Origin: Halichondria panicea
Taxonomy: Eukaryota; Porifera; Demospongiae; Suberitida; Halichondriidae
Assembly: GCF_963675165.1 (NCBI RefSeq)
Contig: NC_087386.1
Coordinates: 2,296,169 to 2,360,168, forward strand
Length of the DNA stretch: 64,000 nt
Direction: 5' to 3'
Shown here in pieces: positions 13,696 through 61,989 of this stretch. Every line of letters starts with the position of its first letter. Within the stretch, counting starts at the first letter, position 1. The translations under genes were made by a program, and so were the position numbers. Below the pieces are notes generated by a model. That model saw nothing but the letters and a program-made list of their open reading frames with translations, did no database searches and was not told the DNA's origin.

Positions 13696-16600
13696 ATGGA
13701 GGATGGACTCACTGCTGTGGATAGGGTATGATATTCACATGATAGATAGATACTCAATGATCAGTGCATTCTCCTAGTGCCTAGATGTACTTGTTGACCA
13801 CCCATAAACACACTTGGCATCATTCATTCATCACAGTATAGTGCCTACACTCTACCCTGTCAGTGTGAGGTGTTTTATCTCATGTTGTTTCTCTCCACAT
13901 GTACCACTCTCTCTGGATGGACAACAGGAATGGATTAAGGTACGTATTTAGTATGATCACATTCTACCAAGCTGACATGCTTGTGCTCTGAGCACTCGTT
14001 GTTAGGAGGTAGACAGTGTAAAGAAGAGCACATACGGATAACTGAATGTGATACTATTGCTTAATTGAGACAAGTAGATCTACTCGTATAGTAGTACCTG
14101 AAAGTATGCATGGTTAATCAAGTGTTTCAGTCTGCATGTTTGGCTGTCCACAATTGTTTCCCCTCCCCTGTGTCATGAAATCACCAGTGTACTGTATCAC
14201 TGCACTAATGTTCTCTTCCTTCCATTTCATGCATCTCCACCTCACCTTTGACTGACCCTCTGAAACAACAGCTTGTAAGTTGGTGTGTGTTGTCAGAGTA
14301 TTTAGTGTCTGTTGCATATTCTGTGATGTTTCTACTTCCCCATTATTACTCTTGTGTGTGTGCAGTGCCATAGTGTTATATAGGGAAATATTTAATATGA
14401 TCACATTCAACCTCGTAATCATTCATTTACTATCTTCCCACTGTTTGCCCTGTGGACTCTCCCTCTCTGGATCAACAGTATGTAAGTTGTGTTTGCACAT
14501 GCACACTCATTTTAATGGTTACTATAGGAACTCGTAAATTGTATTTTGTCTCTTTTCATAATTATTGCCAACTTGGTATTAGCCGAGGCCCACACAACTT
14601 ATTAGGTTGTAGTTTTAATATTCGTAGAATATACACCTAAGTTCATTAGTTGGTACGTACATTATCGTGTTTGTCTCTTCCCATGCACACACACTCATTC
14701 CTATGTTGGACCACACACTGATTTGGACTATTGTAGGAGGTGAGCTTCTTACGAGTACTCAATGTCCACACACTAAAATGGTTCAGCTGCAATGTGTACG
14801 GATGTACTGGTTACCTAGCATCATTAGCGTGTGTCCCTTGTCCTCTAGAGCTGACCCTCTCCCTCGTATAGGGTAGACCACGGCTTTAAACTTGTTCAAT
14901 TCGTAATCCCATTTTACGGGCACAAGTTCGAAATACCACCATTGTGTACATTGTGTACATGTAAATTTGTGTTTATGTAAATTCCCCAACCAATTAAGTG
15001 CCTACTGAACCTAAAACTTGTTGCCTATTTCTCAATATTTCCCCAACTTTTTTAGAGCTTTTCTATACCAGGTCTAGCCACTTGTTGCTGTGTGTAGTCA
15101 GTCCCATACACACCAGCGTTCAACTGATCTGATGTCTTGTATATGTGTTAAGATTAAATCTCACCCTCACATGTACCATTTGATGTGTCTCAGGATGCCA
15201 TTGAGGTATGTTGTGATTGTGTGTGTGTCTCATGAAGTGCAGGTGTTGTATTGTACGACAAACAAATCATATGTATCAAAGTTGTACATGTAAGATGCTT
15301 GTTGTACCGTTTACCGTCCCTTCCACTGACCCACCCACTGACCCTTCCATTATCTGCTATTGCTAGTACTGAGTACCTGTGTGTGTACTAGCCAGTGTGT
15401 GTACTACCAGTGTTCATATCAGTCTCTCCTCACATGTACCCTCTGTGGACTGTTACTCAACAACAGCGCGTGAGTTTATTGCATGTACATATAATGGCGT
15501 ACTAGGCTGACTTGTATACATGTACTACTGCATGAAGGCAGAAAGAATAACTTGCGTGACTATATTTAGGATTAGTACGTACTGAAAGTTTCATGCTGTA
15601 CAGACGTGTACTTGCAATAATTGATGTATACATGTGTGAATGCATTCGTGTATTTGAAAATGTTCATTTCTCTACATGTCCGTGTCCTACTGCTTGTTAA
15701 TGTGACTACTGCTAATGATTACTGGAACAACAGTGGGTAAGTTACAGTATGCAGACATGTATGAATGCACTCACTGCTCCTACCATCATCCCCCTCTCTC
15801 TGTTTCCATGTGTGTCTTACGCTGGTGTCTCATTGGACTAAACAGAAGGTGAGCGGGACACTGCACTGACTTGTGACTGTACTTGTGTCAGTAATGTTTG
15901 AGTTGCATGAGTACATGTGTATTGGCATTCATAGTGTACAGGTTTGTGATTATATTCTTTTCTCTCTCCCTACATTTCCATGGTTACTGAATATCTGGAA
16001 CGATAGAAAGTGAGTCAAACAATGTTGGCAAAAATATACCGTACACCTCATGATATGTGCATTCAGTTTGTAATAGTCTCATATCCTTCCTTACCTGACT
16101 CTAGTAGCTATATAATACTGGTTGCTCCTATACACAACTCATAATGTGTGACCACAAACACACAGTCTAACTTCTCTTGTCTTGTTCACCTTGTCCAGGA
16201 TAAGGCTAGGTATGAGAGGGAACTGAAGCATCATGAGACGGTGAGTGTTGACAGTTGCACTTACTACTCTCGTGGTAAGAGTGGTACACGTAGTCTAGCA
16301 GAACGACTATGTGTGTACATGTACTGTCCATTGTATGATGAATGTTTGCTTTTTGTCTACCTTTGTGTATGCTTTATATGTCCACTTTTACTGTTTGACT
16401 GTGTGAGGTTATACCGTATAGCGGGTAAATATAATAATTTTTATTATTATGATATTCTCGCCAAGGTTGGTGGTTGCTGATTTTGATAATTTGTACATTT
16501 GTATCAGCTGCATGTTCTATTTAGTGGAATGCTCATTCAGTCGTATATAAAGTTTATAATGATATTTTTACTCCCCCAGAGAAGAGCTGCCCTCCAACAG

Positions 16601-19600
16601 AGACTGTCTGGTGACATCACTGACCAGGACCGGAGACAACTGCAGGGAGAGCTGGAGGAGGTGGAGAGGGGGATCAAGAAGTGTGTCTCAGAGATACAAG
16701 GATGTGAGGGGAGGATACCTATCCATGAGAATGCTATTGCTGAGACACGAGGACGAGGAGAGGAGAGGCAGAGAAAGGAAGGTGAGGGGAGCAAGGAACT
16801 TTATAGTACAGTGAGTGTTGATGCTCATAGTTGCAATCACTCGTACCTGCGCAACTTACATGTAGTGTGTTATTAGTAGACTGTACCTACAGCTGTTGTG
16901 AGGTCCTCATACTTTATATAATCGTGTTATTGCAAAAGCGCTGGCTCCACCCACAACCTTTTCGTTCGCCTATCACATGTGTTGTGTTGCTAGGCAACTG
17001 CCCCTGATTGTGCACACTACAGTGTACTAGAGCATTGTTCCTGTTACTACTCTACACACTGTGGTGGTATGGATATGGTTTATTGGACTTTATTAATACC
17101 AACTTTCAATGATTTGGGTTCGTGACGTTGTACTGTGTTACTTAATTATGACATCATCATGTTAATTCAAGCATAGCACATTCCTGTAGTGATCAGCCAC
17201 ATCATTATTACCCAGTACATGTATTCCCTGTCATTGGTGGGTCACCCACTTAGCAAGCTTTAAAGGTTTACGATTTAAAGGTGGTTATGTTCAGCTGCTT
17301 CATGTCCTTCATTTCCACTGGCACTTCATTGGCTTCTTACATATACGCACAGCTGCTGTGTCCAGTTAGATCTATTTTAAAGCAGTTACCGTATATACCG
17401 CAAAATTTTCGAGGGGCTATATTTTCGCTGATTTCATGGGTTAGCAATCCACGAAAATTGTACCAATTATCTGCTATAACATGCAAAGATTAAAGCGTGG
17501 CTTCTGGTAAGCGGTCAACCCACAAACAGTGCAACGAAATGCTTTAGAGGTCATTCCACGAAATATAAGTGCCTCGAAAATTTCGCACTATAAGGTATTA
17601 TGTACATGTATATATCATACGTATGTAATCATGTTCTTATCAACTATTTGCTCCACCCACCACCTTTTTAAGCTTGCGTTGCTAGGCAACTGACTGTATT
17701 GTACAGTTTAGGCAGACTAGCAATCATTTTATGAGCCCGAGGGCGAGTTGCATAAAACATGATGCTATTGTTATGTGTTTTATACCTCACCAAATTATGC
17801 TTTAAGGCGACGTGATCGGACTGTATGACATTTATACATACTTGTTGCCTTTATATTGTTTACATGTTTTCCAGACCTCAATGTAATGTTCATTCCATTG
17901 TTCATTCCCCCACCCACTCACAACCACCATCCTTTTAATTATGTGTTTTGCTTCATATCCATTGGGTTGTGGGGCGTACCCTCTACTGTGCTTACTACAT
18001 GTGTACTTAATAGTGACATCCATGAATGCAAGCATAGCACATTCCTGCATGTAATGATCGGTTTAATCACATGCATCATAATTATGGTGACATCATAATA
18101 ATAGTCCATCTTGTCACCCAGCTCTGAAGTATTGCATAGTTAACATTCCTAACACCACATACACACGTCTTGTTTAGAATCGAAGCGGTTGTTTGATGAG
18201 GGGATGAAGCACGGACACGTCTTGGTCAACATTGTCAACATGCTCGTGTTTGGACCGGCGGGAACAGGGAAGACCAACCTCAAGCACCTGCTAACTGACA
18301 AGCCCCCTCCACTACAGCGTGACAGCACTCCTTGTATGGAAAAGCCAGTACGCATTCGACCCGTGTCCAACACGAAATTCAAGTCAACTGGAAGAGGCTG
18401 GGAAGAGATGTCTCAGCCAAAGCTGCGCAAGCTACTTGCTCAAATCATCGCTAAGTTACCAAAAGAAAGTGCCGATCCATCCACCGCATCAAGGGTTGCC
18501 GAGAGCTTGAAGAAGATGACCACAACCGAGTTAATTTCGGGTCCCGATTCTGATTCAGATGATTCATATTTTAGTTGCAATGAGTACCTTTCTGATTCCC
18601 AATCCAGCAACGATTCTGATGGACTTTTCGACTCCGATGAACTTTCTGGCTCTGCAAGAATGTTGGACGAAGCCATCGATGAAGTGATAGCGAGTGTAGT
18701 GAGTGGTGTGGCAGAAGAGCTGAAGCCAGCCACACAGGGAACTGACCAACTGTCGAGCAGTGACCAGCAAGAAGGAGAACTGTTCGATTCCAACTGGGTG
18801 TATGTTACCGACTGCGGCGGCCAGCCGCAATTCCACGACATCAGCCCTCTCTTCATCAAGCACATTTCGGTGGCGTTGATAGTCCTGCGTTTGATTGACG
18901 AACTCTCCAGTTTCCCTTCTGACGAGTACTACAAGGATGGGCAGCTTGTTGGTAGTCCTTGTGCATCTCACATGACCCTTGGGGAGACACTTCAGAGTCT
19001 CATTCGATCCATTGAGTCCCATACCTCACAAGACAAGAAGCCGAAGATGATCTTTGTGGGCACATTCTTTGATCAGCTGAAAAGCTCGGATACACTTATC
19101 GAGAGGAATCAAGAGATTCTCGACATGCTGCCACCCGATATCAAGAAGCTATTGGTGTACGAAAATCTTGGATTGAACAATCTGATTTTTGGTCTCAACA
19201 CAATCAGCCGAGAAGAAGATTCACTGGCCACTGCCAATAGGATTAGAATTGCTATTGAGCGCTCTATTCCGCTACAAGTCAAAATGCCCATCTGGTGGTC
19301 CTTCTTGGATTCACTTCTCCAGAGTTTGTCTGCCAGTCTCGAGCGAGGTGTACTAGGCATTGAAGAATGTCTCCAATTAGCCACTCGATTTGGTTATTTG
19401 CTCCAAGATCTTGAAGCTGCTCTGGTCTTCTTTGACAACGTGTGTATAGCGCACTACTATCCCTCCATTCTCCCCAACACAGTGTTTGTGGATGCCCAGA
19501 TTCCACTAGACAAGATCACCGAGCTCTCACAGCACGCCATTTTTCTGAGGAATGCACACTCTACTATTAGCCCAGGAGGGACAGGCGCCGAATGGAAGAG

Positions 19601-20894
19601 ATTTCGAGACGAGGGCATAATCACTTTAAAGTTTCTACGATTCTTTAAGAAGCATTACGTTGAAGGCATCTTTTCTCCAGAAGATATGCTGTTGATCATG
19701 AAATATCTTCTCGTGATTGCTCCCATTCCTCTAGTGGAAGCCACTATCCACCAAGCCGAGTTCTTCATGCCATCTCTACTCACATCGATCCCACCTGCTG
19801 AGCTAGACAAAATCCGTTCCTCCTTCACAATATCACCCTTCGCTATCTACTTTCGTAGTGGGTGTATTCGCTCTGGGGTATTTTGCTGTCTAGTTGTGGA
19901 CGTGATCAAGAGGCTGGGCTGGAAAGTGTTGCTTCCTTCAGGAGAAGCAAGCATTTTAGCTAAAAATTGCATTCAGCTTGAAATCCCCAATCTCCCGTGC
20001 ACCGTGGCTCTGATCGACTCCTTCTCGTATCTTGAAGTGTATATCGATGTGCTTTTTGCTCTTCGCAAACAAGTATGCCCTACAATTCGAAACGAAATTT
20101 TGATCAGCATTAAATCGTCGTGTGAAATGTTGCATTACAACAACGACATACCCAAGACAGCCATCTTTTGCCCATGCAGCAAGAAAAGCACTGGAAGCAT
20201 CCGCAAATTGCACCTTGCTGATGTGAGCGAACGAAATGGCTGTAAGTTTTGGAAGTGCTCCCTTCAGACACGTGTGTGGGGAGAGCTCAGTGATGAAGAT
20301 AGAATCTGGCTGGACGATAGCGAAGGTTCTGGTGAGTACAGTGATTTTTAATATTAAAATTTATATTTTGTTTTCCCCTCAATTAGATGTATCATCCTCT
20401 GTTGCGAGTGATATGTGTACAAAAAAGACACTGAGTAACCAGCAGCAACAATCTGGTAAGCACATGCATGGCAAGTATTAGAGTGTCGTATAGTTTCATT
20501 TTAGATATTATCTGATATTGAATTTCATGTTTTTTCTTTAGGTAAATTGCAATCATCCTCTGTAATCGAAGATGTGTGCAGGAAGACTGGAGTGACTGAT
20601 CAACAGCTCGATCAAGAAATCCCTGAGAGTGAAATCTACTGTGTAGCTAAACACATTGAGATGACACCCGGCTTGCTTGAAAGACTCAAACTCAATACTG
20701 CTGAAAAAAGCGATGCTACTCAAAAGAGAAACAATGAAGGCAATCAAGCTGGAGTGGCTCATGCGTTGAGTGTGTGGCGAAGTGTGAATCCTTACAGAGC
20801 TACCTTCAGGGCCTTGGTGGAAATTGCCATAGGACTGAGAAGAGGAGACACTGCTACAGACATTTGTAGATTCATTGTAAAGAATACGAGTTAA
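13696..20894 (+). CDS. Microexon coiled-coil ROCO GTPase with single Death domain, gene 2
   Basis: Exons: 13696-13725, 13928-13939, 14272-14274, 14479-14481, 14737-14739, 15194-15205, 15467-15469, 15734-15736, 15846-15848, 16007-16009, 16199-16240, 16580-16781, 18178-20331, 20387-20455 and 20542-20894 (TAA); 2895 nt, 964 aa. The start is the ATG at 13696. The paralogs start at the equivalent of 13644, but here a 7-bp insertion puts TAG into that frame. The N-terminus is a charged coiled coil. The P-loop is at 18252-18275, then DCGGQ, a COR-like region and a linker exon. The last exon is one continuous Death domain (CVAKHIE to DICRF). It lacks the separate Death-domain exon of genes 1, 3 and 4. 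The acidic-serine loop between P-loop and DCGG is longest here. Function is inferred: a GTPase-switched, Death-fold signalling sensor. Confidence 0.82.
13928..16240 (+). other. Microexon run of ROCO gene 2
   Basis: Nine exons of 12, 3, 3, 3, 12, 3, 3, 3 and 3 nt followed by a 42-nt exon, each between an AG acceptor (mostly AACAACAG, AACAG or GATAG) and a GTRAGT-like donor. They translate as EWIK, L, Y, E, DAIE, R, W, K, K, then DKARYERELKHHET, all in phase 0. The concatenation is a plausible amphipathic helix leading into RRAALQQRL of the 202-nt exon. Introns are about 110-460 nt. No transcript evidence is available to me. The support is consensus splice sites, frame, helix character and conservation of the arrangement in two paralogs. 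Confidence 0.75.
16782..18177 (+). other. Long intron linking coiled-coil and GTPase exons, gene 2
   Basis: An intron of 1.4 kb whose donor (G|GTGAGG, phase 1) and acceptor (TTGTTTAG|AA) join in frame to give RKE-ESKRLFDE. It holds the unit A/B junction near 17238 and an inverted-repeat element at 17387-17597. No other coding exon is recognised in it. Confidence 0.6.
17387..17597. mobile_element. Inverted-repeat element in ROCO intron, unit B
   Basis: About 210 bp with ends TACCGTATATACCGC and, inverted, TACCTTATAGTGCG, followed on both sides by AAATTTTCGAGG words. The equivalent copy in unit C is at about 34385-34594. Units A and D carry other DNA at this place. Confidence 0.6.
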
Positions 20895-29905: not shown

Positions 29906-32900
29906 ATGGCTGAATCTACAACACTCAATGCTGCTAGTTCCCCACAGTTGATGGAGGGTGGGCTCACTCGTGGGGAAAAGGTATGATATTCACATGATAG
30001 ATAGATACTCAATGATCAGTGCATTCCTTTAGTGCCTAGATGTACTTGTTGACCACCCATAAACACACTTGTCATCATTCATTCATCACAGTATAGTGCC
30101 TACACTCTACCCTGTAGGTATGAGGTGTTTTATCTCATGTTGTTATTCTCTCCCCACATGTACCACTCTCTCTGGATGGACAACAGACGTGGATTAAGGT
30201 ACGTTGTGTGCAATCACATTCTACCAAGCTGACATGCTTGTGCTCTGAGCACTTGTTGTTAGGAGGTAGACAGTGTAAAGAAGAACACATACGGATAACT
30301 GAATGTGATACTATTCCTTAATTGAGACAAGTAGATCTACTCGTAGTATAGCCTCCTTCACCGGCCTTCATAGGAAAGAAGGCCTGCTATCGACTGCTTG
30401 CGCATGCGCCAAATTATTCGATATTTTTCCTCGTAAAATTTCCTATAATACTGGATTCATCAGAGAAAATATCCTAAAAGTCACACACAGAGCTATATAG
30501 CTAGCTAGCTAGAGACAGAGCTGTGTATGTTTGTTGTACAGCTATTTTCTTTTGATAGAATCAGTAGCAGTAGTATAGTAGACTTTCACCAAAGTTAGTG
30601 TTAAATGGGCGTGGCCTGTCCATATGATGTCACAGTTTTACTGAGCATATACGATGTTATCCAAAGCCCCCAGATACCGGGGGGATATTAGTGCATGCGC
30701 AAGCAGTCGATACCAGGCCCACTTCCCTAAGTGAAGTGGGAAGTGCGGCCTGGGATCGAGGCTACTCGTAGTAGTACCTGAAAGTATGCATGGTTAATCA
30801 AGTGTTTCAGTCTGCATGTTTGGCTGTCCACAATTGTTTCCCCTCCCCTGTGTTATGCAATCACCACTGTACTGTATCACTGCACTAATGTTCTCTTCTT
30901 TCCATTTCATGTATCTCCACCTCACCTTTGACTGACCCTCTGAAACAACAGGCTGTAAGTTGGTGTGTGTTGTCAGAGTATTTAGTGTCTGTTGCATATT
31001 CTGTGATGTTTCTACTTCCCCATTATTACTCTTGTGTGTGTGTGCAGTGCCATAGTGTTATGTAGGGAAATATTTAGTATGATCACATTCAACCTCGTAA
31101 TCATTCATTTACTATCTTCCCACGTGTTTGCCCTGTGGACTCTCCCTCTCTGGATCAACAGGCTGTAAGTTGTGTTTGCACATGCACACTCATTTTAATG
31201 GTTACTATAGGAACTCGTAAATTGTCTTTTGTCTCTTTTCATATTGCCAACTTGGTATTAGCCGAGGCCCACACAACTTATTAGGTTGTAGTTTTAATAT
31301 TCGTAGAATATACACCTAAGTTCATTAGTTGGTACGTACATTATCGTGTTTGTCTCTTCCCATACACACACTCATTCCTATGTTGGACCACACACTGATT
31401 TGGACTACTGTAGGAGGTGAGCTTCTTACGAGTACTCAATGTCCACACACTAAAATGGTTCAGCTGCAATGTGTATGGATGTACTGGTTACCTAGCATCA
31501 TTAGCGTGTGTCCCTTGTCCTCTAGAGCTGACCCTCTCCCTCGTATAGGGTAGACCACGGCTTTAAACTTGTTCAATTCGTAATCCCATTTTACGGCCAC
31601 AATTTTGAAATACCACCATTGTGTACATTGTGTACATGTAAATTTGTGTTTATGTAAATTCCCCAACCAATTAAGTGCCTACTGAACCTAAAACTTGTTG
31701 CCTATTTCTCAATGTTTCCCCAACTTTTTTATTTCTTAGCTTTTCTATACCAGGTCTAGCCACTTGTTGCTATGTGTAGTCAGTCCCATACACACCAGCG
31801 TTCAACTGATCTGATGTCTTGTATGTGTGTTAAGATTAAATCTCTCCCTCACATGTACCATTTGATGTGTCTCAGGATTGGATTAGGGTATGTTGTGATT
31901 GTGTGTGTGTCTCGTGGAGTGCATGTGTTGTATTGTACGACAAACAAAATCATATGTATCAAAGTTGTGCATGTAAAATGCTTGTTGTACCGTTTACCGT
32001 CCCTTCCACTGACCCACCCACTCTGACCCTTCCATATTCTGCTATTGCTAGTACTGAGTACCTGTGTGTGTACTAGCCAGTGTGTGTACTACCAGTGTTC
32101 ATATCCCTCTCTCCTCACATGTACCCTCTGTGGACTGTTACTCAACAACAGGACGTGAGTTTATTGCATGTACATATAATGGCGTACTAGGCTGACTTGT
32201 ATACATGTACTACTGCATGAAGGCAGAAAGAATAACTTGCGTGACTTTATTTAGGATTAGTACGTACTGAAAGTTTCATGCTGTACAGACGTTAGACTGG
32301 CGGCGATAGAGCGACTGGCAAACTGCCTATCAGTCACTTGTCTCAGCGGAAGTGTAATAGATCGTATGACACTACTAAACATGAATATCGTTATAGATAA
32401 TGTGGTTAAATGTTGCTATGAGATTCAGCTACTATGGAATGCACTGAATCCCCTGAAGTGTAAGTGCGGTTACAATTACAGGGCTAATATGACGTTGAGC
32501 AATCTGATAGGCTGCAATGCTCGTTGCAGCTGAGACGAGTGACTGATAGGCAGTTTGCCAGTCCCTCGCGCTACGCACGCGAGGGGCTGTCGCCGCCAGT
32601 CTATACAGACGTGTACTTGCAATAATTGATGTATACATGTGTGAATGCATTCGTGTATTTGAACATGTTCATTTCTCTACATGTCCGTGTCCTACTGCTT
32701 GTTAATGTGACTACTGCTAATGATTACTGGAACAACAGGTGGTAAGTTACAGTATATACAGACATGTATGAATGCACTCACTGCTCCTACCATCATCCCC
32801 CTCTCTCTGTTTCCATGTGTGTCTGGCGCTGGTGTCTCATTGGACTAAACAGAAGGTGAGCGGGACACTGCACTGACTTGTGACTGTACTTGTCTCAGTA

Positions 32901-35900
32901 ATGTTTGAGTTGCATGAGTACATGTGTATTGGCATTCATAGTGTACAGGTTTGTGATTATATTCTTTTCTCTCTCCCTACATTTCCATGGTTACTGAATA
33001 TCTGGAACGATAGAAAGTGAGTCAAACAATGTTGGCAAACATACCGTACACCTCATATGCATTCAGTTTGTAATAGTCTCATATCCTTACCTGACCCTAG
33101 TAGCTATACTGGTTGCTCCTATAGACAACTCATAATGTGTGACCACAAACACACAGTCTAACCCACTCTTGTCTTGTTCACCTTGTCCAGGAGAAGGCTT
33201 GGTATGAGAGTAAACTGAAGCATCATGAGACGGTGAGTGTTGACAGTTGCACTTACTACTCTCGTGGTAAGAGTGGTACACGTAGTCTAGCAGAACGACA
33301 ATATGTGTACATGTACTGTCCATTGTATGATGAATGGTTGCTTTTTGTCTACCTTTTTTTAGGTATGATTTGTAAGTCCACTTTTACTGTTTGTCTGTGT
33401 GAGGTTATACCGTATAGCGGGTAAATATATAATTATGCTCGCCAAGTTTATTTAGGTTGGTGGTTGCTGATTTTTATATTTTGATAATTTGTACATTTGT
33501 GTCAGCTGCATGTTCTATTTGGTGGAATTTTTCTTCAGTCGTATATAAATTCTTTACTCCCCCAGAGAAGAGCTGCCCTCCAACAGAGACTGTCTGGTGA
33601 CATCACTGACCAAGACCGGAGACAACTGCTCGGAGAGCTGGAGGAGGTGGAGGGGGAGATCAAGAAGTGTGTCTCAGGGATACAACGTTGTGAGGGGAAT
33701 ATACAATACTGGGAGAATATGATTGCTGAGATACGAGGAGAAGTAGAGGAGAGGCAGAGAAAGGAAGGTGAGGGGAGCAAGGAACTTTATAGTACAGTGA
33801 GTGTTGATGCTCATAGTTGCAATCACTCGTACCTGTAGCAACTTACATGTAGTGTGTTATTAGTAGACTGTACCTACAGCTGTTGTGAGGTCCTCATACT
33901 TTATATAATCGTGTATTGCAAAAGCGTTGGCTCCACCCACAACCTTTTCATTTGCCTATCACATGTGTTGTGTTGCTAGGCAACTGCCCCTGATTGTGCA
34001 CACTACAGTGTACTAGAGCATTGTTCCTGTTACTGCTCTACACACTGTGGTGGTATAGATATGGTTTATTGGACAATCTAGACTTTATTAATACCAAGTT
34101 TCAATGATTTGGGTTTGTGACGTTGTACTGTGTTACTTAATTATGACATCATCATGTTAATTCAAGCATAGCACACTCCTGTAGTGATCAGCCACATCAT
34201 TATTACCCAGTACATGTATTCCCTGTCATTGGTGGGTCACCCACTTAGCAAGCTTTAAAGGTTTACGATTTAAAGGTGGTTTATGTTCAGCTGCTTCATG
34301 TCCTTCATTTCCACTGGCACTTCATTGGCTTCTTACGTATACGCACAGCTGCTGTGTCCAGTTAGATCCATTTTAAAGCAGTTACCGTATATACCGCGAA
34401 ATTTTCGAGGGGCTATATTTTCGCTGATTTCATGGGTTAGCAATCCACGAAAATTGTACCAATTATCTGCTATAACATGCAAAGATTAAAGCGTGTCTTC
34501 TGGTAAGCGGTCAACCCACAAACAGTGCAACGAAATGCTTTAGAGGTCATTCCACGAAATATAAGTGCCTCGAAAATTTCTCACTATATGGTATTATGTA
34601 CATGTATATACCATACGTATGTAATCATGTTCTTATCAACTATTTGCTCCACCCACCACCTTTTTAAGCTTGCGTTGCTAGGCAACTGACTGTATTGTAT
34701 AGTTTAGGCGGACTAGCAATCATTTTATGAGCCCGAGGGCGAGTTGCATAAAACATGATGCTATTGTTATGTGTTTTATACCTCACCAAATTATGCTTTA
34801 AGGTGACGTGATCAGACTGTATGACATTTATACATACTTGTTGCCTTTATATTGTTTATATGTTTTCCAGACTCCAATGTAATTTTCATTCATTCCCCCA
34901 CCCACTCACAACCACCATCCTTTTAATTATGTGTTTTGCTTCATATCCATTGGGTTGTGGGGCGTACCCTCTACTGTGCTTACTACATGTGTACTTAATA
35001 GTGACATCCATGAATGCAAGCACAGCACATTCCTGCATGTAATGATCGGTTTAATCACATGCATCATAATTATGGTGACATCATAATAATAGTCCATCTT
35101 GTCACCCAGCTCTGAAGTATTGCATAGTTAACATTCCTAACACCTCATACACACGTCTTGTTTAGAATCGAAGCGGTTATTTGAAGAGGCGATGAAGCAC
35201 GGATATGTCTTGGTCAACATTGTCAACATGCTCATGTTTGGACCGGCGGGAACAGGGAAGACCAACCTCAAGCACCTGCTAACCGACAAGCCCCCTCCGC
35301 TACAGCGTGACAGCACTCCTTGTATGGAAAAGCCAGTACGCATTCGACCCGTGTCCAACACGAAATTCAAGTCAACTGGAAGAGGCTGGGAAGAGATGTC
35401 TCAGCCAAAGCTGCGCAAGCTACTTGCTGAAATCATCGCTAAGTTACCAAAAGAAAGCGCCGATCCATCCACCGTATCAAGGGTTGCCGAGAGCTTGAAG
35501 AAGATGACCACAACCGAGCTAATTTCTGATTCCGATGAGCAAATTTCTGGTTCCAGTTCGAGCCCATTGAGGAGGAACGATTCCGATACGCTTTCTGGCT
35601 CTGCAAGAAAGTTGAAGAAAGCCGTTGATAAAGTGATAGCGAGTGTAGTGAGTGGTGTGGCAAAAGAGCTGAAGCCAGCCACACAGGGAACTGACCAACT
35701 GTCGAGCAGTGACCAGCAAGAAGGAGAACTGTTTGATTCCAACTGGGTGTACGTTACCGACTGTGGCGGCCAGCCGCAATTCCACGACATCAGCCCTCTC
35801 TTCATCAAGCACATTTCGGTGGCGTTGGTAGTCCTGCGTTTGATTGACGAACTCTCCAGTTTCCCTTCTGACGAGTACTACAAGGATGGGCAGCTTGTTG

Positions 35901-38845
35901 GTAGTCCTCATGCATCTCACATGACCCTCGGGGAGACACTTCAGAGTCTCATTCGATCGATTGAGTCCCACACCTCACAAGACAAGAAGCCAAGTATGAT
36001 CTTTGTGGGCACATTCTTGGATCAACTGGAGGAGAGCTCGGATACACTTATCAAGAGGAATAAAGAGATTCTCGACATGCTGCCACCCGATATCAAGAAG
36101 CTATTGGTGTACAACGATCCTGGATTGAACAATTTGATTTTTGGTCTCAGCACAATCAGCCGAGATTACGATTCACTGGCCACTGCCAATAGGATTAGAA
36201 TTGCTGTTGAGGACTCTATTCCGCTACAAGTCAAAATGCCCATCTGGTGGTCCTTCTTGGATTCACTTCTCCAGAGTTTATCTGCCAGTCTCGAGCGAGG
36301 TGTATTAAGCATTGGAGAATGTCTCCAATTAGCCACTCGATTTGGTTATTTTCTCAAAGATCTTGAAGCTGCTCTAGTCTTCTTTGATAACGTGTGTATA
36401 GCGCACTACTATCCCTCCATTCTCCCCAACACAGTGTTTGTGGATGCCCAGATTCCACTAGACAAGATCACTGAGCTCTCACAGCACGCCATCTTCCTGA
36501 GGAATGCTGAAGTCAAGTCACGCTCTACTCTAAGCACAGGAATGACCAAGGCCGAGTGGAAGAGATTTCGAGATGAGGGCATAGTCACTTTAGGGTTCCT
36601 TCGATTCTTTAAAAAGCATTACGTTGAAGGCATCTTTTCTCCAGAAGATATGCTGTTGATCATGAAAGATCTTCTCGTGATTGCTCCCATTCCACTAGTG
36701 GAGTCCACTACCCACCAAGCCGAGTTCTTCATGCCATCTCTACTCACATCAATCCCACCTGCTGAGCTAGACAAGATTCGTTCCTCCTTCACAATATCCC
36801 CCTTCGCTATCTACTTTCGTAGTGGGTGTATTCGCTCTGGAGTATTTTGCTGTCTAGTTGTGGACGTGATCAAGAGGTTGGACTGGAAAGTTTTGCTCCC
36901 CTCAGGGAAACTAATCTGTTTTGCTAAAAATTGTATCCAGCTAAGAATTCCCAAGCACCCGTATACCGTGGCTCTGATCGACTCCTTCTCGTATATCGAA
37001 GTGTACATTGACGTCCCTTTTCCTTTACGCAATGAAATATGCCCTACGATTCGCAACGAAATTTTAAGCAGCATTAAATTGTCCTGTAAAGCGTTGCATT
37101 ACAACAACGACACACCCGAGACAGGCATCTTTTGCCCATGCAAGAAGAGCACTGGAGGCAAATTGCACCTTGCTGATCTGAGCGAACGGAAGGACTATTG
37201 GATATGCTCCCAGGAGGCACGTGTGTATGGGAAGCTCAGTGACGAACATAGAATCTGGCTGGACAATAGCGAAGGTTCAGGTGAGTATAATAATTATATA
37301 GTGTTCAGTAATATTGACATTTATGTTTCTCTATGTTAGGTGAACCATCCTCTGTTACGAGAGATGTCACTGAAAGAACGAGTGATCAGCTGCAATACCC
37401 CGGTAATTACGTAACAGTATATGTAAACATTTGCAGTTCTATTAGTTTTAGAACTTAACTAGCTAGTACATAGTTACTTGATTAGCAGAGTATTTGTTAA
37501 AGTTAAGTAAAATGTGTATCAAATAATTTAAAGAACGAGTGATCAACAGCCTTGTATGGTAATTGACAAACGTACTACATTAGCGTAACTGCTGTGTCTG
37601 CTTTTCCTCAGGTAATTCTGTAATGGAAGATGTGTGCTTGAAGACGGAAGTACATGATCATGATCAGCGAAATACTTCTAGTAAGCTTTGTTTTGCGTTT
37701 TTTTGTTTTATAAATTTCCCCTCCTCAGACCCTGCAATGGAACATGTGGTCAATAAAACAAGTGATCAACATACCAGTGAGAAAATGTCAATTGGTCAAC
37801 AATTTATTTCGAGTTTGAAAGTTAAATTTTTTTCCTGGGCCTAATAATAATTTATTCTTTTACATTATATCTTTTCTTCAGATGAATTGTCCTCTGTTAC
37901 AGTAATGGAAGATGTGTGCAAGGAGACTGGAGTGAGGGACCAACAACTAGATCAAGAAATCCCTGAGAGTGACATCATTCTAATCGCGGAGAAATTTCCA
38001 CACCTGCTGAGCGTGCACAAGGTAGGCAGTACTCTAATTCATATACTGTACGTACTTACATAATTATCATTTTTACATTTGGTAAGGGATTGAGCATATT
38101 GTTCACCCGAACCCCTCAATTGTATTCCCTTTTGAGTTTCCTCTAGAAGGTATTTCCGAGGGGGCAATCCTCACCAAATTAAACCCTGGTTGATTGTTGC
38201 TTTTGTACAGGCTTTGACAATTAACGATCTGCAACACGTTTACGAGAAACTACACACTGCACATGAAAGTGCCAGCCCTCACTGGTTCAATCTGGGATTG
38301 GCTCTAGGTCTAACTTATTTTGTTCTCACCAATATCAATAGCAAGCATCGTGGCGATAATGTGTCGTGCTTGCGTGAAATGCTGGCTGAGCTTCTGAGTA
38401 CGCAAGTGGTAACATGGAGTCTCCTGTCAGACGCTCTCAAAAAGCCCACAGTGAAGCTCATCAATTTGGCTGATAGCATCACAGGTAACTATTTTCAGTA
38501 TTTGCGTATTTTTTTTATTAGCCTGGCTGCATGTGTGTCATTTTTGGTGCTTGTTATAGACTATCATTATCTTAGCTTTTTTCTTTGCATTCAGCCACAA
38601 CTCCTAACCTGCTGAATCGACTCAACCTCACCCCAGCCGACCTCGGTGATGTAACTGATGTCACACGTCGTTATGGCAATCAAGCTGGAGTGGCTCATGC
38701 ATTGGGAGTGTGGCGAAGAGTGAATCCTTCCAGAGCTACCTTCAGGGCCTTGGTAGAAATCGCCATAGGACTGAGAAGAGGAGACACTGCTACAGACATT
38801 TGTAGATTCATTGTAGAGAATACGAGTGGAACTGACCGAAACTGA
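29906..38845 (+). CDS. Microexon coiled-coil ROCO GTPase with Death domains, gene 3
   Basis: Exons: 29906-29980, 30187-30198, 30952-30954, 31162-31164, 31414-31416, 31876-31887, 32152-32154, 32739-32741, 32853-32855, 33014-33016, 33191-33232, 33566-33767, 35166-37280, 37340-37402, 37612-37680, 37729-37776, 37882-38021, 38211-38484 and 38595-38845 (TGA). The sum is 3324 nt, 1107 aa, in frame throughout. Order: 25-residue N-terminus (MAESTTLNAASSPQL...), microexon coiled coil, 202-nt coiled-coil exon, GTPase with P-loop (35240-35263) and DCGGQ, COR-like region, linker with an MEDVCLKTEV motif, Death domain (exon at 38211), and a C-terminal Death-fold half. Two transposons sit in its introns without touching splice sites. 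The product is probably cytosolic: no signal peptide or membrane segment is seen. Confidence 0.85.
30349..30764. mobile_element. TAGCC-ended element in ROCO intron, unit B
   Basis: Ends TAGCCTCCTTCACCGGCC and, inverted, TAGCCTCGATCCCAGGCC. Subterminal inverted words are ATCGACTGCTTGCGCATGC and GCATGCGCAAGCAGTCGAT. It is flanked by ACTCGTAG-like direct repeats. Unit A has the empty site (CTACTCGTATAGTAGTACC). It shares end sequence with the elements at 94-654 and 38937-39024, so one family is likely. Confidence 0.75.
32292..32603. mobile_element. hAT-like MITE in ROCO intron, unit B
   Basis: 312 bp with inverted ends TAGACTGGCGGCGA/TCGCCGCCAGTCTA and inner inverted words (CTGGCAAACTGCCTATCAG). 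The 8-bp TACAGACG is duplicated at 32284-32291 and 32604-32611. Unit A has a single TACAGACG and no insertion. An 8-bp duplication fits hAT-type transposition. No transposase is present. Confidence 0.85.
33768..35165 (+). other. Long intron linking coiled-coil and GTPase exons, gene 3
   Basis: 1.4 kb with the unit B/C junction and a copy of the inverted-repeat element of 17387 (about 34385-34594). Donor phase 1 joins AATCGAAGCGG at 35166 in frame. No other exon is recognised. Confidence 0.6.
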
Positions 38846-52639: not shown

Positions 52640-55600
52640 ATGGCTGAATCTACAACACTGAATGCTGCTAGTTCCCCACAGTTGATGGAGGATGGGCTCA
52701 CTGATGGGGATAGGGTATGATATTCACATGATAGATAGATACTCAATGATCAGTGCATTCTCCTAGTGCCTAGATGTACTTGTTGACCACCCATAAACAC
52801 ACTTGGCATCATTCATTCATCACAGTATAGTGCCTATACTCTACCCTGTCAGTGTGAGGTGTTTTATCTCATGTTGTTGTTCTCTCCACATGTACCACTC
52901 TCTCTGGATGGACAACAGTGGCTGATTGAGGTACGTTGTGTGCAATCACATTCTACCAAGCTGACATGCTTGTGCTCTGAGCACTTGTTGTTAGGAGGTA
53001 GACAGTGTAAAGAAGAGCACATACGTATAACTGAATGTGATACTATTCCTTAATTGAGACAAGTAGATCTACTCGTAGTATAGCCTCCTTCACCGGCCTT
53101 CATAGAAAAGAAGGCCTGCTATCGACTGCTTGCGCATGCACCAAATTATTGGATATTTTTCCCCGTAAAATTTCCTATAATACTGGATTCATCAGAGAAA
53201 ATATCCTAAAAGTCATACACAGAGCTATATAGCTAGCTAGCTAGAGACAGAGCTATGTAGGTTTGTTGTACAGCTATTTTCTTTTGATACAATTAGTAGC
53301 AGTAATATAGTAGACTTTCACCAAATATAGTGTTAAATGGGCGTGGCCTGTCCATATAGGCTCTTGTCAGCCTTCACTCCGTTCAGACGATCGTCATCCA
53401 CACTGTTGCAGGCTGTGAGTCTTTTGTTAACATAGCAGGCTAAGGGTAGCTATTAGAGAATGCTATCAGATGGGCTAGCAACTCAATCGAACTTTCTATC
53501 TACTTCCTTCAATCCACTTTCGTTCCTTGTGATGTCACAGTTTTACTGAGCATATACGATGTTATCCAAAGCCCCCAGATACCGGGGGAATATTAGCGCA
53601 TGCGCAAGCAGTCGATACCAGGCCCACTTCCCTAAGTGAAGTGGGAAGTGCGGCCTGGGATCGAGGCTACTCGTAGTAGTACCTGAAAGTATGCATGGTT
53701 AATCAAGTGTTTCAGTCTGCATGTTTGGCTGTCCACATTGTTTCCTCTCTCCTGTGTCATGCAATCACCAGTGTACTGTATCACTGCACTAATGTTCTCT
53801 TCTTTCCATTTCATGCATCTCCACCTCACCTTTGACTGACCCTCTGAAACAACAGCTTGTAAGTTGGTGTGTGTTGTCAGAGTATTTAGTGTCTGTTGCA
53901 TATTCTGTGATGTTTCTACTTCCCCATTATTACTCTTGTGTGTGTGCAGTGCCATAATGTTATATAGGGAAATATTTAGTATGATCACATTCAACCTCGT
54001 AATCATTCATTTACTATCTTCCCACTGTTTGCCCTGTGGACTCTCCCTCTCTGGATCAACAGTATGTAAGTTGTGTTTCCACGTGCACACTCATTTTAAT
54101 GGTTACTAGGAACTCGTAAATTATCTTTGTCTCTTTCCATATTGCCAACTTTGTATTAACCGAGGCCCACACAACTTATTAGGTTGTAGTTTTAATATTC
54201 GTAGAATATACACCTAAGTTCATTAGTTGGTACGTACATTATCGTGTTTGCCTCTTCCCATGCACACACTCATTCCTATGTTGGACCACACACTGATTTG
54301 GACTACTGTAGGAGGTGAGCTTCTTACGAGTACTCAATGTCCACACACTAAAATGGTTCAGCTGCAATGTGTACGGATGTAGAACTCGTAAATTATCTTT
54401 GTCTCTTTCTATATTGCCAACTTGGTATTAACCGAGGCCCACACAACTTATTAGGTTGTAGTTTTAATATTCGTAGAATATACACCTAAGTTCATTAGTT
54501 GGTACGTACATTATCGTGTTTGTCTCTTCCCATGCACACACTCATTCCTATGTTGGACCACACACTGATTTGGACTACTGTAGGAGGTGAGCTTCTTACG
54601 AGTACTCAATGTCCACACACTAAAATGGTTCAGCCGGATGTACTGGTTACCTAGCATCATTAGCGTGTGTCCCTTGTCCTCTAGAGCTGACCCTCTCCCT
54701 CGTATAGGGTAGACCATGGCTTTAAACTTGTTCAATTCGTAATCTCATTTTACGGGCACAAGTTCAAATACCACCATTGTGTACATTGTGTACATGTAAA
54801 TTTGTGTTTATGTAAATTCCCCAACCAATTAAGTGCCTACTGAACCTAAAACTTGTTGCCTATTTCTCAATATTTCCCCAACTTTTTTATTTCTTAGCTT
54901 TTCTATGCCAGGTCTAGCCACTTGTTGCTGTGTGTAGTCAGTCCCATACACACCAGCGTTCAACTGATCTGATGTCTTGTATATGTGTTAAGATTAAATC
55001 TCTCCCTCACATGTACCATTTGATGTGTCTCAGAATTGGTTTAAGGTATGTTGTGATTGTGTGTGTGTCTCATGAAGTGCAGGTGTTGTATTGTACGACA
55101 AACAAAATCATACGTATCAAAGTTGTACATGTAAGATGCTTGTTGTACTGTTTACCGTCCCTTCCACTGACCCACCCACTAACCCTTCCATTATCTGCTA
55201 TTGCTACATGTAGTACTGAGTACCTGTGTGTGTACTAGCCAGTGTGTGTAATACCAGTGTTCATATCCCTCTCTCCTCACATGTGCCCTCTGTGGACTGT
55301 TACTCAACAACAGAGCGTGAGTTTATTGCATGTACATATAATGGCATACTAGGCTGACTTGTATACATGTACTACTGCATGAAGGCAGAAAGAATAACTT
55401 GCGTGACTTTATTTAGGATTAGTACGTACTGAAAGTTTCATGCTGCACAGACGTTAGACTGGCGGCGATAGAGCGACTGGCAAACTGCCTGTCAGTCACT
55501 TGTCTCAGCGGAAGTGTAATAGATCGTATGACACTACTAAACATGAATATCGTTATAGATAATGTGGTTAAATTTTGCTACGAGATTCAGCTACTATGGA

Positions 55601-58600
55601 ATGCACTGAATCCCCTGAAGTGTAAGTGCGGTTACAATTACAGGGCTAATATTACGTTGAGCAATCTGATAGGCTGCAATGCTCGTTGCAGCTGAGACGA
55701 GTGACTGATAGGCAGTTTGCCAGTCCCTCGCGCTACGCACGCGAGGGGCTGTCGCCGCCAGTCTATACAGACGTGTACTTGCAATAATTGATGTATACAT
55801 GTGTGAATGCATTCGTGTATTTGAACATGTTCATTTCTCTACATGTCCGTGTCCTACTGCTTGTTAATGTGACTACTGCTAATGATTACTGGAACAACAG
55901 TATGTAAGTTACAGTATGCAGACATGTATGAATGCACTCACTGCTCCTACCATCATCCCCCTCTCTCTGTTTCCATGTGTGTCTTACGCTGGTGTCTCAT
56001 TGGACTAAACAGAAGGTGAGCGGGACACTGCACTGACTTGTGACTGTACTTGTGTCAGTAATGTTTGAGTTGCATGAGTACATGTGTATTGGCATTCATA
56101 GTGTACAGGTTTGTGATTATATTCCTTTCTCTCTCCCTACATTTCCATGGTTACTGAATATCTGGAACGATAGAGAGTGAGTTAAACAATGTTGGCAAAC
56201 ATACCGTACACCTCATGTGCATTCAGTTTGTAATAGTCTCATATCCTTACCTGACTCTAGTAGCTATACTGGTTGCTCCTATAGACAACTCATAATGTGT
56301 GACCACAAACACACAGTCTAACCCACTCTTGTCTTGTTAACCTTGTCCAGGATAAGGCTGAGGAGGAGAGTAAACTGAAGCGTCATGAGACGGTGAGTGT
56401 TGACAGTTGCACTTACTACTCTCGTGGTAAGAGTGGTACACGTAGTCTAGCAGAACGACAATGTGTGTACATGTACTGTCCATTGTATGATGAATGGTTG
56501 CTTTTTGTCTACCTTTTTTTAGGTATGATTTGTAAGTCCACTTTTACTGTTTGTCTGTGTGAGGTTATACCGTATAGCGGGTAAATATGATAATATGATA
56601 TGCTCGCCAAATTTATTTAGGTTGGTGGTTGCTGATTTTTATATTTTGATAATTTGTACATTTGTATCAGCTGCATGTTCTATTTGGTGGAATTTTTCTT
56701 CAGTCGTATATAAATTCTTTACTCCCCCAGAGAAGAGCTGCCCTCCAACAGAGACTGTCTGGTGACATCACTGACCAGGACCGGAGACAACTGCAGGGAG
56801 AGCTGGAGGAGGTGGAGGGGGAGATCAAGAAGTGTGTCTCAGGCATACAACGATGTGAGGGGAACATACATATGTGTGAGAATGAGATTGCTAGGATACG
56901 AGGAGAAGGAGAGGAGAGGCGGAGAAAGGAAGGTGAGGGGAGCAAGGAACTTTATAGTACAGTGAGTGTTGATGCTCATAGTTGCAATCACTCGTACCTG
57001 TAGCAACTTACATGTAGTGTGTTATTAGTAGACTGTACCTACAGCTGTTGTGAGGTCCTCATACTTTATATAATCATGTATTGCAAAAGCGTTGGCTCCA
57101 CCCACAACCTTTTCGTTCGCCTATCACATTTGTTGTGTTGCTAGGCAACTGCCCCTGATTGTGCACACTACAGTGTACTAGAGCATTGTTCCTGTTACTA
57201 CTCTACACACTGTGGTGGCATGGATATGGTTTATTGGACAATCTAGGCTTTATTAATACCAACTTTCAATGATTTAACCCTAACCCTAACCCTATATAGG
57301 TAGACTCCTAGGCCTGGTATTGATTGTATCTTGGCATGGTTGGAATTCGCTCAAACGAGCAAATTCCTAAGCGATTAAATACTATTAGCAAGCTAGCTAG
57401 CTAGCTACCTGTGACTCGACTATGGATACTTCAGTTCTGGATTTTGATGGACAAGGGGAGCGCTGGTCCTACCAAGCTTGTAGTCCATCAAAAATGATAA
57501 CAACTGGTAGCAAAGAGATATGCCATACCCTGTTGGGAACCACACAAACACCCTCAGACAGGAGCTTGAGGGCCTATTCCTTCAAGAGAGTAAGGCTTCT
57601 TGTTTCGTACAGGGCATTTATAAGCTATTGCTCCATCGAAATCCTTAATCGCTTAGGAATTCGCTCGTTTGAGCGAATTCCAACCACGCCCAAATACAAT
57701 CAATACCATGCCTAGGCCTATATAGCGTTCAATTGGAGACGGATCGGCCTAGGAGTCTACCTAGCGTTCAATTAAATTGGAGACAGATCGGCCTGGGAAC
57801 GAGGCTAGTAGTCCAGTTGCCTTTCCACTGACACTTTATTGGCTAGGCAACTGACTTTTTTAACATGTACGTAGTACAGTTTAGGCATACTAAACTAAGC
57901 ATCATTCCTTTTGCTACTCTACATGGACACTGTTTATTGAACATTGTAGTAATATACTGTAGGACTGAACATATATAGCTGATGCCCATCGTGTTCTAAT
58001 CGCGTTATCGGTATTATCCTTGCAAACATGCATTTTATGACATACAGGCAGAAGCCCGAGTGACGATCGAGTGCGATGATTATATATTATTATGTGTTTT
58101 ATATCACGATGACCCCTTACCAATTTATGCCTTGAGGCTATGCAATGGTGTAATTAAATAACACAGAAGAGCTTTCTTGTTGCTTTGGCAATTCTATATA
58201 TTCACATGTTTTCCCAGCCCAATGTACATTGTTCGTATATCCCTCTACTGTACATGTGGTGGTTGTTAACATTACATACACCACATATACACATTAGAAT
58301 CGAAGCTATCAGCAAAGCGGTTGTTTGATGAGGCGATGAAGCACGGACACGTCTCGGTCAACATTGTCAACATGCTTGTGTTTGGACCTGCGGGAACAGG
58401 GAAGACCAACCTCAAGCACCTGCTAACTGACAAGCCCCCTCCACTACAGCGAGACAGCACTCCTTGTATGGAAAAGCCAGTACGCATTCGACCCGTGTCC
58501 AACACGAAATTCAAGACAACTGGAAGAGGCTGGGAAGAGATATCTCAGCCAAAGATGCTCAATCTACTAGCTGAAATCATTGCCAAGTTACCAAAAGAAA

Positions 58601-61600: not shown

Positions 61601-61989
61601 CCCACAGTGAAGCTCATCAATTTGGCTGATATCATCACAAGTAACTATTTTCAGTATTTGCGTATTTTTTTATTTATTAGCCTGGCTGCATGTGTGTCAT
61701 TTTTAGTGCTTGATATAGACTATCATTATCTTAGCTTTTTTCTTTGCATTCAGCCACAACTCCTAACCTGCTGAATCGACTCAACCTCACCCCAGCCGAC
61801 CTTGGTGATGTAACTGATGTCACACGTCGTTATGGCAATCAAGCTGGAGTGGCTCATGCATTGGGAGTGTGGCAAAGTGTGAATCCTTCCAGAGCTACCT
61901 TCAGGGCCTTGGTGGAAATTGCCATAGGACTGAGAAGAGGAGACACTGCTACAGACATTTGTAGATTCATTGTAAAGAATACGAGTTGA
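52640..61989 (+). CDS. Microexon coiled-coil ROCO GTPase with Death domains, gene 4
   Basis: Exons: 52640-52714, 52919-52930, 53856-53858, 54063-54065, 54312-54314, 54584-54586, 55034-55045, 55314-55316, 55901-55903, 56013-56015, 56174-56176, 56351-56392, 56731-56932, 58298-60451, 60511-60573, 60783-60851, 60900-60947, 61057-61175, 61367-61640 and 61754-61989 (TGA); 3330 nt, 1109 aa if both GAG microexons are used. Layout as gene 3; P-loop at 58384-58407. The GTPase exon matches gene 1 in its first third and gene 3 afterwards. The acceptor used in gene 3 before ELSSVT is deleted, but an AG 18 bases further into the exon (TTACAG|TAATGG) restores frame. The donor after the Death-domain exon reads CACAA|GTAACT, giving Thr instead of Ala at the junction. 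Confidence 0.83.
53081..53669. mobile_element. TAGCC-ended element in ROCO intron, unit C, with nested insert
   Basis: Same element and site as 30349-30764, so it predates the B/C duplication. It carries an extra segment of about 170 bp (about 53357-53530) interrupting the GTCCATAT/GATGTCACAG joint of unit B. Confidence 0.75.
54110..54640. repeat. Tandem duplication of about 270 bp carrying a microexon
   Basis: The segment from GAACTCGTAAATTATC (54110) to GGATGT (54380) is repeated from 54382 to about 54640 with a short deletion near its end. Units A and B have it once. Each copy holds a GAG microexon with intact acceptor and donor. Confidence 0.85.
55454..55765. mobile_element. hAT-like MITE in ROCO intron, unit C
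   Basis: Orthologous in position to 32292-32603, with ends TAGACTGGCGGCGA and its inverse. The left target duplicate is now CACAGACG and the right TACAGACG. Confidence 0.85.
57275..57294. repeat. Interstitial telomere-like (TAACCC)3 tract
   Basis: Three TAACCC units plus TA, the complement of the animal telomere repeat TTAGGG. It lies exactly where unit C-like sequence ends and the foldback element begins without its own left tip. Unit A has no such tract before its element. Confidence 0.9.
57295..57807. mobile_element. Foldback/MITE-like element, copy 2, left end lost
   Basis: Matches 94-654 from the CTATATAGG word onward, with a small deletion inside (the ACATCCGTT stretch). The left outer end and its target duplicate are missing and replaced by the telomere-like tract. 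The right end TAGCC-type terminus and GTAGTCCAG remain. Confidence 0.75.

Follow-up and report, generated by a model that had tools for sequence, protein, structure and literature searches.

Codon-sized (3-bp) microexons have been described in the NACHT-ankyrin genes of the truffle Tuber melanosporum, where they are said to diversify the sensor by alternative splicing (Iotti et al. 2012, as cited in PMC4986451 and PMC10197012). In brown algal LRR-ROCO genes, each LRR is encoded by one 72-bp exon, and shuffling and diversifying selection are both reported (PMC11378527). For the HNWD NLRs het-d and het-e of Podospora, concerted evolution is described together with codons that are hypervariable at the interaction face (PMC12222747), and the aphid bicycle genes are described as a large family with many very small phase-2 exons under very strong positive selection (PMC9168663). 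Snake toxin genes, in the process termed ASSET, keep their introns alike while exon segments are switched (PMC2474615). One-nucleotide exons have been validated in plants (PMC8831610), so that exons of 3 nucleotides (nt) are mechanistically possible. Here we describe candidate recognition GTPases of the sponge Halichondria panicea in which the N-terminal coding region appears to be split into exons of one to four codons. The genes lie in a stretch of 64,000 nt (RefSeq assembly GCF_963675165.1, contig NC_087386.1, here C10, positions 2,296,169 to 2,360,168 of the forward strand), hereafter called the window, and gene 3 of the window serves as reference.

Like the truffle genes, the sponge genes form an expanded family of candidate immune receptors in which several microexons have the size of a codon, in the sponge as read from sequence and with a presumed sensor role. 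As the truffle system is summarized in the papers citing it, the two differ in that fungal NACHT-ANK NLRs are varied by alternative splicing, whereas in the sponge the putative helix face of a Roc-like GTPase carries germline diversity between paralogs. With the LRR-ROCO genes they have in common a variable repeat region of same-phase exons ahead of a GTPase switch, Roc in the algae and putatively Roc-like in the sponge; in both, diversifying selection acts on few residues of each repeat and a role in immunity is proposed; the algal exons are shuffled 72-bp phase-2 LRR exons, whereas the sponge exons have 3-12 nt, are in phase 0, would encode a helix, and gave no sign of exon shuffling. A homogenized backbone with few hypervariable codons on one surface recalls the HNWD genes, although the sponge surface is deduced from periodicity and the evidence for intron recombination is mixed; HNWD variation concerns WD40 repeats within one gene, whereas here paralogous genes vary and introns separate the hypervariable codons. 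Large family size, many tiny same-phase exons, and very strong positive selection are shared with the bicycle genes, which are putative plant-gall effectors with phase-2 exons, unlike a GTPase with phase-0 exons 2 to 10, some of a single codon. As in ASSET, introns are alike and exonic parts radically different between paralogs, but ASSET segments lie inside ordinary exons, and in the sponge single residues at fixed helix positions are replaced. Among the matches listed for microexons, bicycle genes, sponge immune or allorecognition genes, concerted evolution, and exon segment switching, as far as their excerpts go, no GTPase family was described in which hypervariable residues of a helix are encoded one by one on separate exons.

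Gene 3 spans 29.9-37.3 kb of the window. Exons (ex) were located by local alignment; the exon calls rest on sequence, and all comparisons below are between paralogs within one genome. Its features are the following (window coordinates).

29906..29980, plus strand: ex1, start codon and N-terminus MAESTTLNAASSPQLMEGGLTRGEK; GT donor, frame open into ex2
30187..30198, plus strand: ex2, 12 nt, T-W-I-K, residues 1-2 hypervariable; AG..GT; diversity (pi) at codon positions 1-2 of 0.61-0.77 in 19 copies
30952..30954, plus strand: ex3, single codon A, hypervariable; of the form NNT in 38/39 readable copies
31162..31164, plus strand: ex4, single codon A, hypervariable
31414..31416, plus strand: ex5, single codon E, conserved as E (35/39 copies read) or K (4/39)
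31876..31887, plus strand: ex6, 12 nt, D-W-I-R, residues 1-2 hypervariable, I kept in 34/35
32152..32154, plus strand: ex7, single codon D, hypervariable
32739..32741, plus strand: ex8, single codon V, hypervariable
32853..32855, plus strand: ex9, single codon K, invariant in 33/33 copies read
33014..33016, plus strand: ex10, single codon K, semi-variable (K/E/R)
33191..33232, plus strand: ex11, 42 nt, in which the predicted helix goes on; residues 1, 4, and 5 most variable
33566..33767, plus strand: ex12, ordinary 202-nt exon with an SGDITDQD stretch and a second predicted helix, I-Q-X-X-E-X-X-I-H-X-X-E-N-X-I-A (per-codon table)
35166..37339, plus strand: large exon, putative P-loop GTPase (GPAGTGKTN, DCGGQPQFHD), Roc-like by the Roc match of the relative L047

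By sequence, ex2-ex10 of gene 3 (within 30187-33016) comprise seven 3-nt and two 12-nt exons, all bordered by AG..GT and all in phase 0, and they read TWIK-A-A-E-DWIR-D-V-K-K. Their lengths (12, 3, 3, 3, 12, 3, 3, 3, 3; 45 nt together) are multiples of three, so that skipping of a microexon would preserve the frame. The nine positions proposed in the initial annotation were all recovered with their splice signals. Gene 2 lies at 13.6-20.4 kb. Compared with gene 3, it differed at 16 of the 45 bases in microexons, the count first reported, and at 42 of the 2029 bases aligned in introns (Fisher p = 5.6e-15), in line with the earlier description of the introns as almost unchanged. Two other gene pairs of the window gave 18/45 exon versus 64/2762 intron and 16/45 exon versus 39/2013 intron differences. 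The identity of about 115 bases reported around ex7 was about right: 44 upstream and 92 downstream bases match between genes 2 and 3, insertions in gene 2 not being counted.

The whole genome (131 Mb, 39 contigs) was searched with window positions 31000-31500. This yielded at least 44 matches, merged into at least 40 loci on C10 and a second contig, C13; a second query located ex8-ex11 at five further places, C10:396043 and C13:5007095, 5834540, 6028497, and 6118695. Over 40 loci, 323 of 360 microexons were readable, the 37 unread ones being spread across 10 loci, and 321 of the 323 were flagged AG..GT. One exception (L030) was an alignment slip, the AG lying one base earlier, and the other (L020) a genuine acceptor change in a copy that lacks everything past ex5. 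A downstream GTPase exon was matched by position and strand at 36 of the 40 loci (62 of 329 candidates were scored).

Rates were calculated for 19 close copies on C10 and 11 copies on C13. The C10 group leaves out L008, L019, L020, and L034, in which homology is lost past ex5, as well as L022, L023, L035, and L036; L021 and L029 were kept and counted only where sequence was present. Left out of the C13 group were the fragmentary L026 and L044, the former also from the multiple alignment. In the 19 C10 copies, the difference between copies was 0.691 at positions 1 and 2 of the eight variable codons and 0.0200 in introns, 34.5 times lower (31.9-38.0 when copies were subsampled); this 34-fold figure is a contrast with the immediate surroundings and not a single-tree dN/dS estimate. 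The C13 copies gave 0.694 and 0.0199, a ratio of 34.9. After Jukes-Cantor correction the exon distance within C10 was 1.90, i.e. saturated. Introns of C10 and C13 were differentiated (0.056 between contigs, Fst-like value 0.64), but the variable codons were not (0.03). Intron divergence was thus nowhere near that of the microexons (0.020 versus 0.69 at variable codon positions 1-2 in the 19 copies), and what had been seen within the window proved to be general and stronger than the window alone had indicated.

The changes were confined not simply to the triplets, as the initial annotation had it, but to certain codons and mainly to their first two bases: ex5 and ex9 did not differ in the 19 copies, ex10 is semi-variable, and ex11 and ex12 vary in a similar manner. 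Third bases of the variable codons were less diverse (0.33 in C10 and 0.31 in C13), and part of their variation goes with tryptophan, methionine, or other residues requiring a different third base. Conserved codons of the same microexons changed little (0.07 and 0.05). The core residues were the isoleucines of ex2 (37/37) and ex6 (34/35), the lysine of ex9 (33/33), and glutamate or lysine in ex5 (39/39), and the fourth residue of both ex2 and ex6 alternated between E and K. Copies with the same residue rarely used different codons (7 of 153 pairs within C10, 2 of 45 within C13, and 8 of 138 between them); silent positions of the variable codons therefore do not look hypermutated. NNT codons were used in 38/39 copies at ex3, 35/40 at ex4, and 33/35 at the first residue of ex6 (ex6a), NNC codons in 26/35 at the second (ex6b). 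The third base is thus largely exon-specific (T in ex3, ex4, and ex6a, C in ex6b, mostly C in ex7). The tandemly duplicated ex2 of L029 was excluded from the codon counts.

None of the 291 variable codons was a stop. Tryptophan was the commonest residue (33/291), followed by threonine, arginine, asparagine, and aspartate; lysine (2), glutamine (2), glutamate (5), and proline (1) were rare. Uniform NNY usage was rejected at all five units tested (p of 0.0078 or less). All eight residues were readable in 31 of 40 copies, and the 31 strings were all distinct. Pairs of copies shared a mean of 0.78 of 8 residues, and the spread of sharing (0.706) equalled that of column-wise shuffles (0.700 ± 0.044), showing that the eight positions vary independently. 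One locus, L049, was held out with predictions fixed beforehand (n = 1). It read EFIE-G-Y-E-GRIE-G-R-K-N, with splice sites, lengths, core residues, and third bases as predicted. Its eight-residue string was new and shared a mean of 0.61 of 8 residues with the 31 strings (0.8 had been predicted), and its aligned blocks were 77-96% identical to gene 3 (predicted 90-97%) and 95-98% identical to the C13 copy L040.

Taken in the order of splicing, the residues follow the pattern X-X-I-(E/K)-X-X-E-X-X-I-(E/K)-X-X-K-(K/E/R)-X-K-A-x-x-E. The periodicity of residue entropy was strongest at 100 degrees for the 15 microexon residues and at 101 degrees for the 29 residues of ex2-ex11 (permutation p <= 0.0005), which supports the triplets being spliced together in that order. 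Within each heptad, positions 1, 2, 5, and 6 vary, and these were found by hand to be adjacent on the helical wheel; the periodicity would place them on a single face of an alpha-helix. In ex12, codons 41, 42, 44, 45, 48, 49, and 52 each showed 5 to 8 different residues. This count covers 14 of 18 loci, those equal in length; L024, L025, L026, and L021 were set aside because theirs differed. Since the same variable heptad occurs in an ordinary exon, variability follows residues and not microexons; the earlier statement that the triplets were proven to be functional units was accordingly too strong, the unit of variation being the residue. With numbering from the gene 3 start codon, the variable residues of ex2-ex8 are 26-38, SGDITDQD is 64-71, and the variable stretch of ex12 is approximately 93-111. 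The two variable stretches thus lie at mirror distances from SGDITDQD, and packing of the two helices as an antiparallel hairpin would join both variable faces. In a PDB profile search the best match had an E value of 0.65.

The large exon carries the motifs GPAGTGKTN and DCGGQPQFHD, which we take to be a P-loop and, in its DCGGQ part, a DxGGQ motif. The protein would be a Roc-like GTPase: L047 on C14, 38% identical to gene 3, matched Pfam Roc with an E value of 2.2e-5 (25.1 bits, just under the curated cut-off of 27), and L048, 36% identical to gene 3, had no Roc match. In the three proteins scanned no COR domain was matched in Pfam, and several hundred residues follow the Roc part. In those GTPase exons that were scanned, neither NACHT nor NB-ARC matched with an E value of 1 or less, and neither part of a NACHT-ankyrin architecture was found in the portions scanned (ex12, the GTPase exon, and one downstream open reading frame (ORF)). 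Repeats lie upstream of L047, and the one scanned matched the Death domain with an E value of 1.2e-4, just under the cut-off. The GTPase exons lacked stop codons in all 11 copies used for rates. Module and GTPase did not always go together. A GTPase exon on C10 with 87% identity was preceded by 4 kb without a microexon-region match longer than 22 bases, and microexon regions were seen ~3 kb upstream of GTPase exons of only 44-45% identity (C13:5829314, 5760744, and 5584164). This mismatch suggests gain or loss of the N-terminal module in different members of a Death/Roc GTPase family. Death-like and GTPase-switch proteins are described from animal and bacterial immunity, and in the sponge Amphimedon TRADD-N proteins that carry Death-type units are described as very greatly expanded (PMC8195603).

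Taken together, these genes are probably recognition GTPases with a variable helix face under extreme diversifying selection, on a backbone homogenized by duplication and conversion. Each of the ~40 clustered copies, 36 of them with a Roc-like GTPase exon, would encode an N-terminal coiled-coil-like helix whose exposed face comes from nine phase-0 microexons (12-3-3-3-12-3-3-3-3 nt). Eight residues in two heptads (X-X-I-E/K-X-X-E and X-X-I-E/K-X-X-K) would make up the face under selection, and the second helix, in ex12, would repeat the variable heptad, probably antiparallel to the first. Recent duplication together with gene conversion would account for the likeness of introns, core residues, and GTPase. 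What the face recognizes is most likely a range of variable ligands, from microbes or non-self, and the signal would be passed on by the GTPase switch. A variable recognition surface under strong diversifying selection, as initially proposed, agrees with these data, with recognition itself as the presumed function: replacement positions are hit, silent changes are few, stops are absent, and the variation falls on one predicted helix face.

Should the microexons be spliced as predicted, 15 residues would be spread over nine exons, an extreme fragmentation of coding sequence, and the replaced residues would contrast very sharply with the DNA around them. The family would then join the truffle NLRs and brown algal ROCOs as a case from beyond fungi and algae, and would make it testable whether tiny same-phase exons recurrently build receptor repertoires without somatic recombination. 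The arrangement of one residue per exon might itself be the mechanism, in that a separate phase-0 exon for every contact residue, set among interchangeable introns of some hundreds of bases, would allow single residues to be reassorted by conversion and to be included or skipped in RNA. We regard this as doubtful; if true, each skip would rotate the following helix face by 100 degrees, giving a combinatorial animal receptor repertoire without somatic DNA rearrangement.

Several other explanations were weighed against diversifying selection on residues. Conversion might swap whole microexons between paralogs, with introns as homologous spacers and residues reassorted singly from an old pool. 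The same codon sets do recur at the same exon in many copies on both contigs, and the eight positions are independent. Intron variants of the 19 copies were linked only within 20 bp (r2 of 0.21-0.24, then ~0.07), and 38-43% of intron site pairs were incompatible with a single tree at every distance, which together suggest extensive gene conversion. The GTPase exons of genes 1-4 are mosaics. Those of genes 1 and 4 (1166-3324 and 58312-60470) differed by 0.5-1.7% up to alignment column 800 and by 3.5-31% beyond it; past column 800 gene 4 mostly follows gene 3 (0-5%), with one of eight later bins nearer gene 1. Conversion or recombination in the GTPase exon, with a breakpoint in gene 4, is clear. 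Around the nine microexons, diversity was 0.024 within 30 bp and 0.021 within 150 bp, the nearer flank being higher at five of nine, at most a faint rise beside saturated codons. In the C13 group, copies sharing a codon had borderline more similar flanks at 15 and 30 bp (p = 0.05 and 0.055). In the 19-copy C10 group, however, copies sharing a codon were no more alike in the flanking intron at 15-200 bp (p of 0.34-0.72; 0.58 at 15 bp), ex12 is equally variable with no introns between its residues, and old alleles should show silent third-base differences, which are rare. Moreover, the exon-specific third bases indicate that codons do not seem to move between exon positions. The variability of ex12, the unlinked codons, and the exon-specific third bases favor selection on residues over exon exchange; we consider the swapping of whole microexons unlikely, and targeted exchange, raised in the initial annotation, is possible but not supported. 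Internal duplication of exon-intron units was considered and set aside: 10 of 45 pairs of upstream flanks beat all 60 shuffles, which is suggestive only, splice signals being shared.

A-directed mutagenesis occurs in diversity-generating retroelements, and a codon- or base-specific mutator acting on positions 1 and 2 would likewise account for the dominance of NNT/NNC codons, the rarity of silent third-base changes, and the variation of ex10 among AAA, AGA, and GAA. TGG (33/291), ATG, GTG, and AGG violate an NNY rule, however, adenines of the adjacent conserved ATT, GAG, and AAG codons (ex2, ex5, ex6, and ex9) are almost never altered save for the E/K alternation by G/A, and a codon-blind mutator would strike third bases too, making targeted mutagenesis very unlikely. 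The contrast might also be due to introns held by splicing needs while the triplets drift, as microexons need strong splice signals and the 3' intron ends are in part alike, as noted above for the upstream flanks. Two inserts within the introns bear on this point.

30350..30762, plus strand: insert in intron 2, its inverted arms 42 nt long (86%), present in some copies; diversity 0.0245
32293..32603, plus strand: insert in intron 7 with inverted arms of 39 nt (95%) and 17 nt (94%), in ~8 of 19 copies; diversity 0.021

The former is probably a mobile element, the latter probably a miniature inverted-repeat transposable element (MITE). Both inserts diverge as little as the surrounding intron (~0.02), so that the likeness of the introns reflects youth or homogenization and not constraint. 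Drift would also fill silent positions, and conserved codons of the same exons barely change; constrained introns around neutral exons are thus highly improbable. Finally, 3-nt exons are exceptional and exon status was read from the sequence, so that the triplets might be non-exonic variable sites or an assembly artefact. The splice signals at 321 of 323 microexons, the lengths in threes, the lack of stops, the helix periodicity, which is lost on residue shuffling, and the same rules on two separate contigs and at a further locus leave this scarcely credible. The two MITE-like inserts, present in some paralogs and missing from others, are handy conversion markers.

Some results weigh against selection on the helix face of a Roc-like GTPase family as the full account. 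In 11 copies, the GTPase exon showed a synonymous difference of 0.149 (0.03-0.35 along the exon) and a replacement difference of 0.071, whereas microexon-region introns showed 0.021. The silent rate of the GTPase exon thus exceeds the intron rate, and part of the contrast is due to unusually young introns; the microexon region is younger or more homogenized than parts of the GTPase exon. With silent change in the GTPase exon as the yardstick, the variable codons show an excess closer to 5-fold. A pairwise homoplasy index (PHI)-like test on intron sites gave p = 0.75, so that the evidence for intron recombination is mixed and recurrent change may contribute. The GTPase exon of gene 2 matched Pfam Roc only with an E value of 0.14, which does not reach the cut-off, and that of L031, one of the 36, contains two stops. 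Four of the 40 copies (L008, L019, L020, and L034) keep ex1-ex5 and lose homology after ex5; they are probably deleted copies. Part of the microexon array was not found in L021 (gene 1, C10:2292148; ex5-ex7) and L029 (C10:575241; ex8-ex10), apparently owing to deletion.

The other genes of the window have the following features.

1166..3352, plus strand: gene 1, large GTPase exon; the microexons of this gene (locus L021) are situated immediately ahead of the window
13928..16009, plus strand: gene 2, ex2-ex10, EWIK-L-Y-E-DAIE-R-W-K-K; microexons at 13928-13939, 14272, 14479, 14737, 15194-15205, 15467, 15734, 15846, and 16007
18178..20351, plus strand: gene 2, large GTPase exon
52919..56176, plus strand: gene 4, ex2-ex10, WLIE-L-Y-E-NWFK-S-Y-K-R; microexons at 52919-52930, 53856, 54063, 54312, 55034-55045, 55314, 55901, 56013, and 56174
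58312..60510, plus strand: gene 4, large GTPase exon, a mosaic of gene-1-like and gene-3-like parts

Downstream of gene 4, the ORF at 61127-61774 resembles by eye the Death-domain repeats of L046 and had no match in Pfam. An Rfam scan of the window returned nothing at the gathering cut-off. In L029, a 24-bp tandem duplication doubles ex2 plus the preceding acceptor (unspliced reading RYIEDGQQWRIE) and could be a new microexon in the making. The four copies that end after ex5 lie at C10:2255460 (L019), 2449719 (L020), 589200 (L034), and 621719 (L008). In L019 and L020 (~9.9 kb each), homology resumes at sequence matching 39 kb of the window, and no GTPase exon occurs within that ~9.9 kb. Two ORFs of L019 (5463-5834 and 9039-9440), homologous to ~40 and ~44 kb of the window, presumably resemble xanthine dehydrogenase and an EDEM-type alpha-mannosidase; both are apparently carried inside the repeated unit.

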